Made by a program: the position numbers and the translations under genes. DNA of 64,000 bases from Telopea speciosissima (taxonomy: Eukaryota > Streptophyta > Magnoliopsida > Proteales > Proteaceae): contig NC_057924.1 of NCBI RefSeq assembly GCF_018873765.1, positions 9,238,001 through 9,302,000 of the forward strand, given 5' to 3'. Position 1 is the stretch's first letter. The number at the start of each line of letters is the position of its first letter. Shown piece by piece: positions 4,164 to 62,591 of the stretch. The notes under the pieces are model-generated. The model made no database searches. It was not told where the DNA came from and saw only the letters and a list, made by a program, of their open reading frames with translations.

Positions 4164-4278
4164 CTGTAGTGAGCTTGATTAAATATCACTAAAATTGATA
4201 TTGTTTAATTTTTAGTACTAGAACAATAGAAATTGTTTAGCATGCTTTATTTATTGTAGATCTTTTAATTTTGCAGTA

Positions 4279-7200
4279 ATGGTTAACAATCAATTTTCTT
4301 TTCCTATGCTCAATGGGGATAATTATGTTGACTGGAAGGAAAAGACTGAACTTGCACTTATGTGCATGGACTATGATTTAGCTTTGCGTGAAGATAAACC
4401 TGCTCCTCTTAAAAACACTAGTACTCCAGCTGAGATATTTCACTTTAAGGATTGGGAGCGGTCTAACCGTATTTCCTTATCAATCATCAAGGCTCATATT
4501 CATAAGAGCATTAAGAGTTCCATTCCTGACTATGATACAGTTAAGGAATATATGAAGGAAATTGAGGCCCTATTTGTGAGTTCAGACAAAGCCATAGCCA
4601 TGACCTTAATAGGTCAGTTCAGCTCCATTAAGTATAATGCAATTAAGGGTGTGAGGGCACACATCATGCACATCAGGGACATAGCAGCCCAACTGAAAAC
4701 ACTGAAATTGGATATTTCTAAACCTTTTCTGGTATATTACATTCTGAACACTCTGCCTAAGGAGTTTGCTCCCTTTAAGATCTCTTTTAACACACATAAG
4801 GATGAATGATCATTCAATGAACTACTGACCGTGTGTTCAAGAAGAAGAGAGATTGAAAAGAAAGTCAAAGGAAAGTGTGTACCAAACAACCACTCTTGAG
4901 AAAGGTCAATCCAGCAAGTCGACTCTGAAAAAGAAGACCTGGAAAAAGCCTGTGAAGAAAGAGGGCATTAAGAAAGCTTCCAAGTGTTTCTTCTATAAGA
5001 AGAAAGGACACATGAAGAAGGATTGCTCCAAATTTAAGCAGTGGATGGAGAAGAAAGGTACTCTTCAGACCTTTGTCTGTTATGAGTCAAATTTTATGAA
5101 TTTTCATTATGGGAATTGGTGGATTGATTCAGATACAACAATTCATGTTTTCAATTCCTTGCAGGGTTTTCTGGAGACAAGGCCACCTACTCTAAGTGAG
5201 CACCATGTCTATTCAGCTGAAGGGATGTCGTCTCAAGTTGAGGCCATAGGGGTCTACAGACTAGTTCTACTTTCTGGATTTATTTTAGATTTAGACAAGA
5301 CATTTTACATTCCATCATTTGATCGGAACCTGTTGTCAGTGCCTAGACTAACATCATTAGGTTTTAAATTTATTTTTTAAGGAACAGTATTTTCATTACT
5401 GAAAAATAATGTTAATGTTGGTTCTGGTACTTTAGTCAATGGATTGTATTTGCTACATTTAGATTTTACTTGTGAATACAATTTATTGTCTAATTCTACA
5501 CATGTTGGAAACAAAAGTTGTGCAACAAATGAACAATCCTCCAAGCTTTGGCACAGGAGATTAGGTCATATCTCCATTGATAGAATTAAGAGATTAATAA
5601 AGGATGGAGTCCTTGAGATTCTAGACTTTATTGATCTAGGGACTTGTATAGATTGTATAAAGGGCAAACAAACCAAAAAGTCCAAAAGAGGTGCCAAGAG
5701 AAGTTCAGAAATTTTAGAAATCATACATACTGACATTTGTGAACCTTTTCACACCATGCCTGAACGGAGAGAGATATTTTATCTCCTTTATAGATGATTA
5801 CTCTAGATTCATGTATCTCTACCTTCTGGTTCATAAGGATGAAGCACTTAATGCTTTTAAGAACTATAAAGTAGAAGTAGAGAAACAAATTGGTAAGATG
5901 ATCAAAATAGTACGTTCAGAGAGGGGAGGGGAGTTTTATGGTAGGTACACAGAGTCTGGTCAAAGACCAGGTCCATTTGCTCAATTCCTTCAGGAACAAG
6001 GAATTGTTTCACAATACACCATGCCAGGATCACCTGATCAAAACGGTGTTGCTGAACGAAGGAATTGAACATTAATGGACATGGTAAGAAGTATGATTAG
6101 TAATTCTAATATTTTCTTATCCTTTTGGGGTGAAGCCCTAAAGACATTAGTCTACATCATAAATAGGGTTCCTTCCAAAGCTGTGCCTAAAACACCTTTT
6201 GAGCTTTGGAAAGGATGAAAACCTAGTCTACATCATATACGTGTTTGGGGATGCCCTATCGAGGTAAGGGTGTACAACCCACAAGAAAAAAAGTTGGATT
6301 CTAAGACCATCAGTGGATATTTCATTAGGTATTCAGAAGGATCCAAAAGGTACAAATTTTATTGTCCTACACACACACCTAGGATAGTTGAGTCACGTAA
6401 TCCTAAATTTCTAGAGGATGACACCAACAGTGGGAGCATTGAACTTAGAAATGTTGAATTCCAGGAACTTGACATTTCGTTAGAAGCTTCCACCTCTGGA
6501 GGTGATGGCACATAATTTTTGCCTTTACCATTATTACCCTGTTCTACAACTGAGGTTGAGAAAGAAATTTCTCATGTAGATATACCACAGGAAGAACAGA
6601 TTGTTGGTGAACCAGATATTCATCATGAGGAAAATTTAGATGAACAACCAAGCTTGAGGCGATCCACTAGAACTAGGAAGTCAGCAATTCCTTTAGATTA
6701 TCAAGTATATCTACAAGAAAGTGAATTTGACATTGGAGTTGATGTGGATCCAATATCATTTTCACAAGCCATGAGCAGCCAAAATTCCATCTTGTGGTAC
6801 AATGTCATGAAGGATGAGATGGAATCAATGGCAAAGAATCATGTATGGGAGCTCGTTGAGTTGCCTAAGGGGTCTACAGCTGTTGGCTGTAAATCGATTT
6901 TTAAAACCAAAAGGGATTCCAAAGGTAACATAGAACGATATAATCAAAAGGAAGATATTGATTATAAAGAAACCTTTTCTCCTGTATCAAGGAAGGATTC
7001 AATGCGTATTGCCATGGCCTTGGTTGCTCATTACGATCTAGAGTTACACCAAATGGATGTCAAGACTGCGTTCTTGAATGGAGAATTAATAGAAGAGGTA
7101 TACATGAAATAACCTGAAGGATTTATATCGGATAAAGGAGATCACCTTGTATGTAAACTGAATAGGTCCATATATGATTTGAAACAAGCTTCTAGGCAAT

Positions 7201-43800: not shown

Positions 43801-46800
43801 GAAGAATGAATTGAGTTTGTGGTTTGAGTAGCCTGTGGGCTGTGTGCAAGTTTCTTCCCCCCCCCCCCCCCTCTTATGCGAATTCTTCTCTGTCCCCCTC
43901 CAACTCTGGTTCTTCTAACCGACCCTCCACCACTGAGGAGAGAGTGGGATGCTTGATCCAATTCTATCCCATCTTCTAATTTTTTTTTCCCAGAGATCTT
44001 AGTGAGTATTCTGTTCTGAATTTTAAGAATCTATTGAAGGCCATTCAAAGGTTGATTCCATTGTTGGGAAGCATTGTTCGGTTGCTATTTCTGATTGAGA
44101 TTCCTGCTGATCTAATCATCTGCAGACCATACTTTGTTGCTCCTGTTGTAGAGTTGGGTTCCTATTTCAGTAGTTGGGGACTTGGTTCTACATTAAACAA
44201 GTTCCAAATAAAACTTCAGGTCTGGGTTTGTGCCCTCTGCCAGATCTGATTTCATAACCATTCCTTAAACTCCCTAGTTGATTTCTGGGATTGATTTTGT
44301 TGGATTCAGCAGGCCTTGTTATGTAGGTACACTAGCTTGGATCGACCCAAACCCAGTTGGGTATCCAGATTGAGATGAACCGGGTCCAGTTTGAGTTTTT
44401 GGATCTAGTAGGATTTTAGGAATTTACGCTATATGGGGAATAATGTCTTTTAGTTTATTTTCTTCTGTTTATTTTAGAAGTAAGCTACGTAGGGTATTTG
44501 TTTTCCCGATTGTTCTTAGTTTCCTAATTTGAATTAGTTTTGTAGTTTGTGAGAGTCTTATTTTTAGGAGTCTTTTATTTCTCTTTATATATGATGTAAT
44601 TTCCCATCGTTGGACATAGATTGAAAAGATTATTTGAGTTGATTGATTGTGTTTCAGAGCCAGTGCGTGTGTACTCTTCTTCTTCCCCTCCCTCCCCCTC
44701 TTCTTATGTGATCTCTCTCCCCTGCAACTTTGGTTCTTCCCAGTTCCCCCTCTTCTCCTAACCGGCCGTCCATCAATTTGGTATCAGTGCCGAAGGATCC
44801 ATCTCCTTCCCTATCAATTTCTCTCTTAATCCATTCTCCTTCTTCCCTAAATTCTTTTTCCCCCATTGCTGTTCTATCCTTAAACCAGTACCCCATCTCC
44901 TTCCCATCTTCCGCAGCATCTCTATCCCTCTTCCTCTCCTTCAACCCCACTGAACCCCAATCGCAGCAACCGCCTTGTGATTCCCACACAAAAAAAAAAC
45001 AAAACCGCTCACAGAAAACCCCCATCCCTTCGATTCCACTGTCTTAACAAAACAAACCCCAACCCACCGCCCCACAGAAATCCAACCATTCCCACAACAA
45101 CCATCCCCACTGTCCATTGTCTACCTCTTCCCACTGTGATATCCGTGATTCCCACAGAATAATCCCCACCATCCTCCTTTTTTTCTGCAACTTCGTTCAA
45201 TCCATCCCTCTCGTTAGGATTCCGCCAGCCAAAAAAAGGGAGGGAGGTGAGAAGAGAAGAGAGAGCGAGACAGCAAGCAAAAAAAAAAAAACTTGTACCC
45301 GTTTCAGAATGAGACGCAGACGACTCTCCAAGTTGACGCCATCCTTCGAAGTTGAAGTCCAAACCTCTTGCTGGTTCCATGTCCTAGTCGTAGTCAAAGT
45401 CGCACACTGTTCTCGTTCGATTCCGCCATTTTTTTTCTCAGTTTTCTCTTCTGGTTCGGGTAACAGAATCCAAAAATTCCAAACGGTCACCCTTCTCCTC
45501 ACTCTAACCCCTCACGATTCTTATGTTTTTTCTTTTATTTTTTTTAGTTTTCCCATTATACCCTTAAGTATCCATTTATTTTAATTGGCGGAGGGCCAGT
45601 TAGGAGAAGAGGGGGAACTGGGAAGAACCAAAGTTGCAGGGGGAGAGAGATCGCATAAGAAGAAGAAGAAGAAGAAGAAGAAGAGGGGGGGGGGGGGAAG
45701 AAGAGTGCACACGAACAGCCATGCAGGCTCTCAAACACAATCAACTCAAATCATCTTTTCAATCTATCTCCAACGATGGAGAATTACATCATATATAAAG
45801 AGAAATAAAAGACTCCTAAAAATAAGACTAACTCTCTAACTAGGATACTAATTTAAATAAGGAAACTAAGAACAAGGAAAACCTGTGCCTGGGTCTTAGG
45901 CTGAAACTTTCCGGGTTAGTTAAACTCTGACATCAGTGCTTTCGGGATGCTTGGTTGATTCCTTTAGCAGTTTTCAAGTCAGGTGATTTTCTGGAAACTA
46001 AATCACAAGAGATAGGATAATGACTATATAGTAGACCCACATATGACTTACTAATTTGGGTGAAAAGTTAGTGTTAGCTTTTGTAATAGTATTACCAGAT
46101 GTATTAAGCCTAGGGTTTGATTAACCTATTCCTACCTCGCAAAAATAGGATCAATAGACCACATATGGGACCCACAGATCATCCATTGTATGATACGTAT
46201 TGATGTTTTTCCCCTTTATCTAGCCAAACTAGCTTTTTTATACTCATTACTTTTGTTGGTTTTCCTGTTCAATTAGACTTCCACTGAATCAGCATTAAAA
46301 ATATATATATAAATATTTATGTGGAGGAAAATAATTCCAGGTACCGATTCTGTCATTATATGGGCTCTTTAGATTTTTTTCGATGATTACAAACAGACCT
46401 CCATGTTATGCATAAGAAAGGTCTGGTGAATTCGTATGTTTACTTCAATATTCCTGCGTCAAATTTTGGACATGTAACTTTGATGATTATTTAATCTTCT
46501 ATCCATATTTCTTGGCTGTGTACATCCTAGGCATAGGCATTAATTGTCTTCTCTGTTCTTCCCTTTGAAGGACTGGCATATTGTACTTCTATTAAGGAGT
46601 TATATCTAGCTGGCAACAAAATCAGCGAAGTGGAAGGTCTTCATCGTCTCCTCAAACTAAACATCCTGGATTTGCACTTCAACAAAATATCAATAGCTAA
46701 AAGCCTTGGCCAACTTGCAGCTAACTACAGTTCCTTACAAGCCATTAGCTTGGAAAGCAATCCGGCACAGAGAAATGTTGGAGATGAACAACTTAAGAAA

Positions 46801-47196
46801 TATCTGCAAGGTCTTCTGCCCAATCTGGTTTACTTGAATAGGAAGCCTATCAAAGCTAACTCTTCAAAGGAGGTTGTTGACCGTGCAGCTCGATCAGCGC
46901 TCAATGTGCATAAATTTGATGGTGGCCTAAGATCAGAACTTAAGCTGACCAGGAAGGGAAGCCATAATGTAGCATCTCACAAGCCATCATCTTCATCCAG
47001 CCACGGCCATACAAGCAGAGGCACGGGCTCACAAAACCAGTCTAAGAGTCGGCGAGGGCAAATGCCACCAATCGCAACTAAAGGGACTACTGATCAACAT
47101 CACCATTATCTTGATCTCAGTTTGAAGTTGAAAAACTTGCGGTCAGGGCTCTCTATGCACCGGAGTCGAAGTGCAGGAAATCTGAGAGATCCATGA
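37841..47196 (+). CDS. SDS22-type leucine-rich-repeat protein (AT4G03260-like)
   Basis: Four coding exons (37841-37891, 38000-39314, 39451-39597, 46571-47196) join in phase with GT-AG borders and encode 712 residues. Exon 1 is only 17 codons (MVKFSCFQAHIICHKSK) and joins KTVQLSAEATDR, the conserved N-terminus of this plant family. Residues about 60-425 are low-complexity and Ser/Glu-rich with the motif KSYSLPDLG. About 430-575 are SDS22-like LRRs (LRVLNLSGNSI, LHVLNLSKNNISVIEGL, LRILDLSYNRI, IKELYLAGNKISEVEGL, LNILDLHFNKI). The tail is basic and ends RSRSAGNL. Plant databases often call this family outer arm dynein light chain 1-like. Flowering plants lack axonemal dynein, so a protein-scaffold or phosphatase-regulator role is more likely but unproven. 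Intron 3 is 6973 bp and full of retroelements. Confidence 0.92.
38816..38887 (+). repeat. In-frame 36-bp tandem duplication in LRR gene
   Basis: Two copies encode D(D/N)SISENEKDKC back to back. One G/A difference distinguishes them. It keeps the frame and lies in the disordered part of the protein. Confidence 0.9.
40080..41250 (+). mobile_element. Two LTR-like relics in intron 3
   Basis: Both stretches show the layout of LTR ends in this window: AATTAGTTTCC-type tracts, a TATATA-like promoter and a leader with pyrimidine-rich sequence. They lack internal domains. Fossils, by resemblance only. Confidence 0.4.
41283..43932 (+). mobile_element. Short gypsy-type LTR element in LRR intron
   Basis: LTRs at 41283-41727 and 43514-43932 both start TGAT(G)(C/T)AGATACACTACC and end CCCTCCACCA. 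TGGTATCAGAGC at 41731 is the primer site, and ACTGGGGGAATT before the second LTR is the polypurine tract. The flanks CTCAG and CTGAG are a probable 5-bp target duplication with one mismatch. The 1.8-kb interior retains only a stretch resembling a gypsy aspartic protease (near 42900). The element is non-autonomous and broken many times over. It shares the transcription direction of the host gene. Confidence 0.8.
44317..44775 (+). mobile_element. Related LTR with primer site
   Basis: Colinear with the LTRs at 41283 and 43514 (GTACACTAGCTTGGATCGAC at its head). It is followed by TTGGTATCAGTGCC at 44777, a primer-site relative. A 3' partner in the same direction was not seen. Fossil. Confidence 0.75.
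45585..45880 (-). mobile_element. Inverted partial copy of the same LTR
   Basis: Read on the minus strand it matches the second half of the LTR at 44317 (the TATATGATGTAATTC stretch through TTCCCAGTTCCCCC to CTGGCCCTCCGCC). Between it and 44775 lies C-rich leader-like sequence. Fossil fragment, opposite direction to its relatives. Confidence 0.75.
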
Positions 47197-51039: not shown

Positions 51040-51245
51040 AGAAAAAAGGATTGCAAGATATCTTGGAAGAATAGTGCATAATAAGCAAAGAAAAAATTAT
51101 TTTGCAGGTACACCAGAAGTTTACACCAAAACTGAACAAAACCAACCCAACAAAAACAGAACTGAATGAAACTAATGAATTAAAATTAAGAATGCGTATC
51201 GTCCACAACACTCACATTTAGGAACAATCACTGACCCACCAAAAC
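51040..51245. repeat. Local duplicate A (empty site of the Pack-MULE)
   Basis: The segment with GGATTGCAAGATAT, AATAAGCAAAGAA, then GGTACACCAGAAG and CCAAAACTGAACAAAACC matches the two flanks of the MULE insertion (51258-51320 and 52675-52790) joined together. So it is a tandem duplicate without the insertion. Confidence 0.7.
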
Positions 51246-51479
51246 AAAATGGGAGAAATAAGAAAAGGGTTGCAAGATATTCATGGAATAACAGTACACA
51301 CTAAGCAAAGAAGAATTTAATGGGGGTAATTTACACGTACCTCCCCTGAGGTATCACGTAAGTACAGATTCACCCGTGAGTTTTGGATATTTACACATGC
51401 CACCCCTGCTTTTCAAAATAATTAATAAGTAAACCCTAGAACAATGGTAAAGTGAAGGACATAACAGCTGCAACAATGG

Positions 51480-51946
51480 AGAGCACCATATCTGATGAAA
51501 ATCTGGGATTTGGGAGAAGACACTTTCGGCAATTCCGGACGTTGCAAGCAATCTATAACTTGAAATCATTGTCTCCTTCAAAGGGAACTTGCAGCAACAG
51601 ATTCATACCCTGCAGATCCTCTTCATGGCTTCACACTTTTGGGGTAATCGAAAATGCTTCCCCTGTTAATGAAGGGGGAAATGAGGCTTATTGCAGGCTG
51701 CTGAAAAACGAACTTTTTGGGACTGATTTTGGGTTTTTTCTCCTGCAGGTCCAGGTCAGGCTCAGGGTTTGCCTTTGATGAGTCCAAGCAAGAATATGTT
51801 GAGGTTTAAGACCGATCCATCGAGTCCAAGCTCACCTTACTCTCCATCTGTGTTTATCCATGATGGAGCAACTTCCGGGAAGGTTTCCACGCCACTTAAG
51901 CCTCCTAGGAAGATTCCCAAGACACCCCACAAGGTTAGATCCAAGT
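51480..51946 (+). pseudogene. FZR3: Captured exon 1 of FZR3/CCS52B (APC/C activator)
   Basis: Reads LKSLSPSKGTCSNRFIPCRS, then NEGGNEAYCRLLKNELFG, and in a second frame MSPSKNMLRFKTDPSSPSSP, then PLKPPRKIPKTPHK. This is the N-terminal region of plant FIZZY-RELATED 3/CCS52B, with the C-box-like DRFIPCRS element (here NRFIPCRS) that docks on the APC/C and the usual K.PRK.P.TPHK stretch before the WD40 propeller. A frameshift separates the halves near 51740. After PHK the sequence continues GTTAGATCC, as if intron 1 began there. No WD40 repeats follow, so it cannot activate the APC/C. It is cargo inside a MULE. Confidence 0.88.
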
Positions 51947-52404
51947 GATCAGAATATTGTGTTCCAATTATAACTTCATAGTTTATAATTGGCGGTGGAC
52001 AGAGCAGGGCTGGTGAGTTGCATAGGGCAGTCGAGTGTAAATAACAGATTATTCATGTTTTGGATCTCTGTTTTGGGTTCTCTTCGGTTGGAATCAACAG
52101 GCCATGGGACTCCTCTTCCACCCTGCTGATCTCTCTATTTTTTTTCGGGATCTTATTTGTCTGCACAAGGGATTGCTTCAGCATGAATTTCAGGTCAACC
52201 GGACCTGCAGAACTGGTTCTCCTTATCTGATCGATTTTACCAGGTTTCAGGGTTTTATAGGCTTCTCGATTTTGGGATTTCTACCAAATCATGCCACTGG
52301 TTGCATAAATTTTTGGGGATCACTTCCCGCTGTCTGGTATTTGTTTCAGTTGTCTTCTCAGGTCAATCATATGCGGAAAGTCTCCTCACCTCCTTTCCAA
52401 ACCA

Positions 52405-52455
52405 GGAAGAAGAAGAAGACGATGACGATGACGATGATGAAGAAGAAGAAGAAGA
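52405..52455. repeat. GAA/GAC/GAT low-complexity run
   Basis: Imperfect trinucleotide repeat encoding an acidic run in one frame; inside the Pack-MULE. Confidence 0.85.
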
Positions 52456-52666
52456 GGACCACAATGTCATTCTACCCTATCAAGGGTATATTGGTCATAA
52501 AATGTCTAAAACACTCTTAACGCTCGCAACTAATGGGAACAACCAACGGAGTGAGTTTACTTATTAATTATTTTGGAAAGCAGGGATGGCATGCATAAAT
52601 ATCCAAAACTCACAGGTGGTTCTGTAATTATGCGATACCTAATGGGAGGTACGTGTAAATTACCCC

Positions 52667-53608
52667 TTTTTTTCAAGGTACAGCTGAAGGTTACTCCAAA
52701 ACCAAACAGAACAAACCCAGTAAATGAGAGGTTGGTGAATCAAAAAACATGAATGCTCCTCAGTTATGTTCTCATTTGAAAAGAGCCCATCAGCCACAAA
52801 AGAAAGAAATTGTTAAGACTATATAAATCTCAGTGTTTTGGAACAGCTAGAAAACCTCCATAATGCTAAGACATCCCCGTACACTTTCCTTAAGGCAGCA
52901 CAATTGCTTTGATTACTTTAACAATATGCAAAGCTCAAGGAATTCTAGAAGAGGCAAAAGACAAAAAACTGAACCAGAAATTCGGCAATATAAACTTGCA
53001 TAACTGGTAAAAGATTGGATGCCTGGGAAAGAGTGGGTTACAGATATGACAATGGTTGCTCATGCCAACAACAAATCGCCACATTGCCACAATCAGTTCA
53101 ATTGTGATAAAGCTACATAATCGGATAGTTTCAGCTTCTTTCTTTTTCTTTTCCTTTCCTCTATTTTAAATGTTAGGTCAAAGAGATTTTATTGCAAAAG
53201 AACAGCCAAGGTATGAGACATAAAATAAAAAGCTTTGGGTAAATCATCACCAAAGGCCTAATAAGCCTAAAAACCTCAAGAGGACTAAACAATAGGGTAG
53301 GACCCAATATATAAGGACTACCTAACCACCCCGCTGGTGGCCAGCTAATCTGATAGATAATTAGCAAATCACAACCTCCAAGAGAACCAAAAATCCCCAT
53401 GAGAGCAAAGCAAACTCACTCTCATGATGAGATGCATACTGCCAAGGTTCAACAGGATGAGCTTGGAGTCAATTGATTACCAACTTGGAATCATCTTCAA
53501 TGAGTACATCCTCCCCAACCATTGGACAAAGCAATATCCAAACCTTTGAAAATAGATTTCTGCTCTGCAGTAACAGAGTAAGAGCAACCAATGGTGCCGA
53601 TTCCCACT
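52667..53608. other. Right flank of Pack-MULE, intergenic
   Basis: The first 130 bp are the second half of local duplicate B. At 53160-53410 there is repeat-like sequence with no coding content, possibly an old LINE end. No gene. Confidence 0.4.
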
Positions 53609-60775: not shown

Positions 60776-61603
60776 ATTAAATACAAATTTTGAGTTACAA
60801 AATTATGCCCATTTTAGAATCAGAATTGTAAAAGATAGTGAGATGATATATAAGTGAAAACGACAGACACAAACTCATTTAAAATTTGAAAATAACAATC
60901 CATAAACAAAGGTTGTCAAACAGCAGTATCAAAGCATAATAGGCTAGTATCACTAAATAGAATGCATCCTAGAAGGCAAAAGATAAATAGTGTACCACTT
61001 TGAATAAATAAAGGTGCCAATAGCTGGGCAGATAGAAGAAACATATCAACACATGCACCCAATCACTAGCCCTTCCCCAAATACTCGAGGCTCGCTACCA
61101 GGATCCATGCAGGACAACCACTTAAGTAGATTCACGCCAACCGAGTGTTCAAAAATAAGCACTCCACTAGAAGAAACTACTATATTATCGTCCAATTATT
61201 CTGAATTAAGAAAAACATAAACCCATCTCCGGTAATAATATAATAATTCAGCAATAAGCACCGAAAGACTTTGCCATTCCACCACCATACCACGAAAAGA
61301 AACGAACTAAACCCCCCCCCCCCCCCAAAAAAAAAAAAAAACCAGTTGAAAGAATGAGAGAAAGAAAGGAAGGAATGATAACAGGGGAAAAAATCATTTC
61401 TTCCAATCCAATCAATCCATATTCCATACCAGGATCATAAACCACAAGAGAAACCCATGCCTGACAAAACCAAATCCCACCATTCCTAACGAGCAAAAGA
61501 CAAACAGATATAGTAGAAATGAAAATTGAAATACCTAATTAGTAACAACATTAAGAAATAATAATGGGAATTAAATCAATATCAATGAAGAAAAAGACCA
61601 AAC
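60776..61603. other. Intron/3' region of PHOS32-like gene, low-complexity
   Basis: A C-run followed by an A-run at 61312-61340 is low complexity. The last, very short coding exon of the gene at 61604 probably lies here or further left, but I cannot identify it. Confidence 0.4.
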
Positions 61604-62309
61604 CTTTCTGTTCCTCGGGGGCATCGTGATACTCCTGATCTTCCTCCGGCACTGGGTGCAGCTCTGCCTCTTTGGCCGCCGCCCTAGCGTTGGCAGCATC
61701 AGCTTGAGCAGCAGCAGCTCCGTCTTTTTCATCGGGATATCTAACAACAACCACGGGACAAACACAGTGATGGACGCAGTAATCACTGACGCTACCAAGT
61801 CGTCCCTTGCTGTTGCGTTTTGACGCACCAAACCCTCGACTACCCATAATCACAGCACTCAACCCTAACCTCTCGACCTCTAAGCAAAGGCGCTCCTTCA
61901 TGTCGTGGTCCTTGACGATATGGATCTTAAAAGGGATCTGGGCATCAACCAAAGGCTGTGACAGATCGGTAGCTTTGGTGGTGGTGAAGGCATCGAAATC
62001 ATCCTCGAGCTTCTGCTGGGACTCTTCGTCGGTATCGACGGATTGGTCAACGGAGCCCCAATCAGCACCATAGAGGACGCTGGTGGGACGCACGTGAAGC
62101 AGGATCACGGCGTCACCGGGGCGAAGGTAGTTCTGCACAGCCCATTTAACGGCAAATGCGCTTTCGTCGCTGAGATCAACGGCGATGGCGATCCGCCGAT
62201 GGGCCCCGGAGGTGGGTGTAGAAGCGGATGATAGTGGAAAGCGTGGTGAGGACGGTTGGATGGTGGGAACCGGACGGTCGGATTCCGTCGGACTTTGCTT
62301 CGAAAGCAT
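61604..62309 (-). CDS. PHOS32: Universal stress protein, PHOS32/PHOS34-like (exon 1)
   Basis: The minus-strand frame from ATG at 62309 gives 235 codons up to a donor at 61603 (CAGAAAG|GTTTGG). Residues 1-36 are Ser/Pro-rich and include the S-P site at S21-P22, equivalent to the MAP-kinase site Ser21 of PHOS32. The USP domain (about 38-193) starts RRIAIAVDLSDESAFAVKWA, continues GDAVILLHVRPTSVLYGADWG, and has KIHIVKDHDMKERLCLEVER and the nucleotide-binding MGSRGFG....GRLGSVSDYCVHH. It ends VCPVVVVRYPDEKDG. The tail EEDQEYHDAPEEQK is acidic. USP-A proteins of this type bind ATP and act in stress signalling in the cytosol; the specific role is inferred. Only a few final codons should lie in another exon. 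The first ATG is used. Confidence 0.92.
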
Positions 62310-62591
62310 TCCGGATGAAGCAGAGAAAAATCGAGGCGTCTAGGCCTTACCGGGTTTGGGGAGATCTTTTGTTTTGTTTTCCCTTTCTCTTCTATTATCG
62401 TCTTTGAATTTTCGTTCTCTTCCTTCGTTTGTCGTTCTGCTTGAGTTGGTCTGCGAGAGCAAACTATGTTTGAGCGCAACCGAGACGCGGAGGGATCGAC
62501 AGAGAGGTATTGGCGAGTGCAGTTTAGAGAGGTTTCTTTTTTTGCCGGGGAAAGCCGCCTAACCCGAAGGGATAATTACTCTTTTTTTCTT
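62310..62591. promoter_or_regulatory. PHOS32-like 5' UTR and proximal promoter
   Basis: The 280 bp between the PHOS32-like start codon and the MULE arm are pyrimidine-rich on the minus-strand leader side. The MULE arm therefore begins within the gene's promoter. No clear TATA box was fixed. Confidence 0.4.

Follow-up and report, generated by a model that had tools for sequence, protein, structure and literature searches.

Structure and insertion site of the element

The window analysed here is a stretch of 64,000 nucleotides of the Telopea speciosissima genome (C9:9238001-9302000), and coordinates without a prefix follow its numbering. The genome searched contains 822,943,500 bases in 1287 contigs. 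At 51323-52666 lies a non-autonomous Mutator-like element (MULE) of 1344 bp with terminal inverted repeats (TIRs). The left arm (51323-51434, plus strand) and the right arm (52555-52666, minus strand) are 112 nt each and pair with 89% complementarity, within the 100-500 bp that is typical of MULE TIRs (PMC3310237). The second-best inverted pair within the 2-kb stretch is only 20 nt long at 75%. The outer end reads GGGGTAATTTACACGTACCTCC, which is reversed at the opposite end. An earlier note, made from the sequence of this region, had described such inverted repeats with a length of about 125 bp, which is slightly too long.

A local repeat shows where the element was inserted. One copy (51044-51149, plus strand) is uninterrupted and serves as a paralogous empty site, while the second copy is divided by the element into a left part (51263-51319) and a right part (52667-52719), so that comparison of the two copies marks the insertion limits. 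The target-site duplication (TSD) of MULEs has 9-11 bp, and none is visible within 8 nt of the ends, where the best flanking repeat is 8 nt with 2 mismatches and lies off both ends. TSD loss is common among TIR elements, as only 2.4-30.8% of copies retain the TSD across ten tomato TIR families (PMC3310237). With no visible TSD of its own, the element is classed as a MULE through its family.

No transposase was detected by Pfam in the ten stop-to-stop frames of the element, the longest of which has 159 aa, and the three largest frames gave only weak matches below the cut-off to unrelated families. The element contains fragments of two host genes (FZR3 exon 1 and an amino-acid permease) and no internal transposase, as is characteristic of Pack-MULEs. 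Its surroundings look like intergenic sequence; the neighbours are an LRR-type frame at 46537-47196 (Pfam just under the cut-off) and a universal-stress-protein frame at 61551-62339 (PF00582). Pieces of a copia-type retrotransposon, with gag (PF14223) and reverse transcriptase (PF07727), lie farther away at 4222-7109.

The repeat family and its transposase

A genome search with the left TIR gave 857 candidates, and all of the 40 scored ones matched, which bears out the expectation that the inverted ends recur in many other copies. Judged by these matches, the element belongs to a large repeat family. Several members retain a TSD, such as the sibling on C2 (9/9), a copy on C11 (8/9) and a copy on C9 (11/11, with one end shifted by 3 nt). 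Among 8 family TIR pairs examined, 5 have a repeat of 8-11 nt that is perfect or has a single mismatch, although two of the five are weak, one being poly-A and the other not abutting its TIR. A further 2 pairs have no repeat, one of them with a left end that had to be extrapolated because only part of it matched, and in 1 the locus ended.

MULE transposase domains are abundant in the genome, as all of the 150 scored (of 827 candidates) are above the Pfam cut-off. We compared these by eye with the 40 listed TIR places in search of an autonomous partner, and no transposase lay within 20 kb of any of them. The nearest listed distance is about 56 kb (C8), among the scored places, which are 40 of 857 TIR candidates and 150 of 827 transposase candidates.

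The captured FZR3/CCS52B fragment and its parent gene

The segment 51542-51944 aligns to C7:20943868-20944265 with 372 identical columns of 404 and 7 gap columns (92%, E 2.7e-164). The earlier note had read it as exon 1 of FZR3/CCS52B, captured as genomic DNA by a Pack-MULE, and the TIRs, the family and this match, far above background, agree with that reading. We searched the whole genome with 51437-51950, and it turned out that the FZR3 part matches only the window and C7:20943868-20944265, while the other 5 of the 7 candidates (all scored) match within the left piece only. Thus no second FZR3-bearing copy of the element was found among the 7 scored candidates genome-wide. A protein search with the parent exon 1 (5 of 5 candidates scored) returned the parent, the element and two paralogs that are only distantly related (42% and 40%); the element occupies two rows because its frame is broken. 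Nothing of the element besides the cargo matches the 10 kb around the gene on C7.

The parent is an intact gene: its 10 exons are separated by GT-AG introns and encode 477 aa in an uninterrupted frame. Its top match in PDB is human FZR1/CDH1 (5.3e-148), with CDC20 at 1.4e-105, and by this homology it is an FZR/CDH1-type activator gene of the APC/C. The parent contains DRFIPCRS and PRKIPKTPHK, whereas the paralogous exon 1 loci on C6 and C1 read DRFIPSRS with PRKVPRSPYK or PRKVPWSPYK. We take the former motifs to mark CCS52B and the other forms CCS52A, and name the parent CCS52B/FZR3 on this assumption. CCS52A and CCS52B form separate clades (PMC3095333). No Pfam model matched FZR exon 1, even in the parent's own exon, and neither of the two broken cargo frames had a match in PDB.

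The cargo consists of 387 of the 480 coding nt of exon 1 (51542-51933, plus strand), without the first 93 (31 codons), and of the first 11 nt of intron 1 (51934-51944, plus strand), as placed by the alignment to C7 and the parent gene model. Because the 11 nt of intron 1 were captured beside the exon, the source was genomic DNA and not mRNA, as had been proposed from the sequence alone. The proposal that intron-like sequence follows the exon applies to these 11 nt; the rest is element interior that matches the sibling elements. A longer stretch of intron 1 was ruled out, as the match to the FZR3 locus stops after these 11 nt. The exon itself had been assigned correctly, but it is partial and its frame is broken by a 1-nt deletion and a 6-nt insertion (net +5 nt), which rules out an intact captured exon.

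The two motifs of the earlier note are where it placed them, NRFIPCRS at 51596-51619 and PRKIPKTPHK at 51904-51933. The C-box has the consensus DR(F/Y)IPxR (PMC3095333), and in the cargo (51596-51616, plus strand) it reads NRFIPCR, with the D of the parent's DRFIPCR changed to N. In total, 25 substitutions separate cargo and parent over 397 sites (K2P 0.066). By a codon count on the BLAST alignment, 12 of the 25 are synonymous and 13 nonsynonymous, with 6.6 synonymous ones expected (P 0.022), and synonymous sites have diverged by about 0.117 per site. Constraint on the parent branch would lead to such a synonymous excess and can explain it, in a comparison whose changes are unpolarised (no outgroup); constraint on the cargo itself is a less likely source, given the broken frame.

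Other modules of the element

Two features go beyond the earlier note, namely an antisense permease fragment and sibling elements that show where FZR3 was inserted. The permease fragment occupies 51438-51540 on the minus strand (antisense to the plus strand) and is 81-85% identical to C7:9697348, C1:10431438 and C2:46821120. Two of these three loci read as amino-acid permease (Aa_trans, PF01490) with E 1.1e-13 and 7.1e-13 on the opposite strand. In the element itself, the minus-strand frame has a weak match (E 0.085) to the corresponding part of PF01490.

To the right of the FZR3 cargo follow module C (51945-52104), which is common to the siblings on C2 and C650 in genome DNA matches, and module D (52119-52369, plus strand), which is 77-79% identical to three loci without these TIRs. 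These loci precede a copia-gag-like frame (Pfam below the cut-off, in 1 of 2 frames), so module D may be, on weak grounds, a leader-like fragment of a copia-type retrotransposon. A subterminal simple repeat rich in GAA/GAC/GAT lies at 52401-52454. The rest of the right part is common to sibling elements.

Sibling elements and order of acquisition

Two siblings, C2:64815837-64817272 and C650:8426-16595, contain the TIR, the permease fragment, a filler Y, modules C and D and the second TIR, and FZR3 is absent from both. In the C2 sibling (1436 bp) the order is TIR, a segment X with permease sequence, permease exon, filler Y, C, D and TIR. The C650 sibling has the same order, with longer permease sequence and both ends of Y retained; about 6.6 kb of other sequence lies inside its filler Y. 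Apart from the two siblings, filler Y has only two matches in the genome, of 49 and 75 bases at 82-86%, and the genome search found no origin for it.

In the element of the window, the FZR3 piece is located between the permease fragment and module C. Since the siblings have the same flanking modules with another filler, FZR3 most likely replaced the interior of an existing Pack-MULE, taking the place of the end of the permease piece and of Y. At the right FZR3 junction CAA is common to both templates, and at the left one CAT is common only if one A-to-G change is assumed. Because 5.8% of random junctions also share at least 3 nt, the microhomology of about 3 nt at the FZR3 junctions only suggests template switching. 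Segment X is absent from the element, with CCC at the junction of its loss.

Over five modules, the element and the C2 sibling differ at 54 of 716 sites. The cargo has diverged from its parent to a similar degree at synonymous sites, which suggests that FZR3 was captured at about the time when the two copies parted. Because a single genome contains the parent, the siblings and the insertion point, the sequence of gains becomes readable, the permease fragment and filler coming first and FZR3 later in the filler's place.

Proposed history and alternative explanations

We are highly confident of the following general history, in which a Pack-MULE with older permease and leader-like fragments had its middle filler replaced by a genomic piece of FZR3 and then decayed. 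The ancestor would have carried amino-acid-permease and retrotransposon-leader-like fragments between its TIRs. Into it, a genomic piece of FZR3/CCS52B from C7 (most of exon 1 and 11 nt of intron 1) would have been placed instead of the filler. This probably happened through gap repair with template switching, in which the FZR3 locus served as template to mend an internal break or gap of the element. Afterwards the copy decayed, as seen in the frameshift, the changed C-box and the absence of a visible TSD. As the ten frames show no transposase, the element would have needed one in trans, and was presumably moved by an enzyme encoded elsewhere. We infer that the element is without function, and nothing in these results points to an effect on cell-cycle control.

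A less likely alternative concerns the timing of the capture: the element would already have been immobile when the FZR3 fragment came alone, in a gap-filling event at the site that did not depend on transposition. Such gap filling is reported for most single-copy Pack-TIRs of animals (PMC8277862), and the FZR3-bearing copy is single, without a visible TSD. However, one genome does not separate late gap filling from capture during transposition, and the divergence of the cargo from its parent (by K2P as well as at synonymous sites) is close to that between element and C2 sibling. Another reading, a processed retrocopy of FZR3 mRNA between unrelated inverted repeats, would account for a cargo that is mostly exon, but it is refuted by the retained start of intron 1 with its splice site unspliced and has next to no probability; exon 2 and poly-A are absent, and the TIRs are not unrelated repeats, since they belong to a family.

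Explanations that give the cargo a role fare poorly against replacement followed by decay. Exaptation through antisense or small RNAs acting on FZR3 or the permease genes, which the earlier note had suggested for FZR3, could draw on 76 of the 1324 element 21-mers that are identical to the FZR3 locus, all inside the cargo, and on 2, 15 and 6 identical to the three permease loci; in maize, captured donor sequences serve as siRNA reservoirs according to a review (PMC13317346). But only transcripts that start at the right end would be antisense to FZR3, since the piece is sense in the left-to-right direction, and the FZR3-bearing copy is single and decayed, with nothing that sets its cargo apart from an inert copy. 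We regard this exaptation as very unlikely. It is extremely unlikely that the element is a bidirectional source, which would exploit the opposite orientation of its two fragments (FZR3 sense, permease antisense) to yield, from whichever TIR is transcribed, RNA antisense to one of the host genes; if it were true, trans-acting small RNAs would target both a cell-cycle activator and an amino-acid transporter. A new chimeric protein is barely credible. An open ATG frame of 100 aa (51476-51778, plus strand) does join antisense permease codons in frame to FZR3 codon 32 onward, but an in-frame junction is expected by chance in one case of three, the frameshift that follows from the 1-nt deletion ends the frame, and the product would have an altered docking C-box and no WD40 domain. 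We therefore list it as a chance frame.

Relation to known gene-capturing elements

The element is a decayed Pack-MULE with fragments of two genes, and elements of such kind are well known, so that the example is clear but ordinary; Pack-MULEs with several parents have already been published (PMC4858842). Like the Pack-MULEs of rice and other plants, it is non-autonomous, has long TIRs and no transposase, and carries genomic fragments of host genes. It differs from them in its host, which is a member of the Proteaceae, in its cargo, which is part of a cell-cycle activator, and in the TSD, which is not visible. It resembles the gap filling of animal Pack-TIRs (PMC8277862), where single-copy cargo takes the place of internal TIR-element sequence and the breakpoints have short microhomology (1-36 bp, median 2), though those elements belong to other superfamilies and live in animals. 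Pack-CACTA and other Pack-TYPE elements (PMC8903248) are similar in exon capture by TIR elements, but they belong to other superfamilies with other ends.

The replacement speaks for a model of cargo gain in which new fragments displace the interior of Pack-MULEs that already exist. Our search of one open-access library found no paper on Pack-MULEs with CCS52 and yielded only the lotus genome for Pack-MULEs with Proteaceae. This case adds a Proteaceae example to a grass-centred literature.

Frames in other family members

Besides, ten frames of other family members were compared with Pfam, giving one HSP70 match below the cut-off and one reverse transcriptase. The former comes from an element of 3.66 kb with the same TIRs (C4:49298686-49302347, L016:687-4348), in which a frame resembles part of HSP70 (PF00012, E 0.0073) and is perhaps another captured gene, judged from this match. 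The latter is a reverse transcriptase domain (PF00078, E 1.5e-12) at L015:6797-7225, between two family TIR matches.
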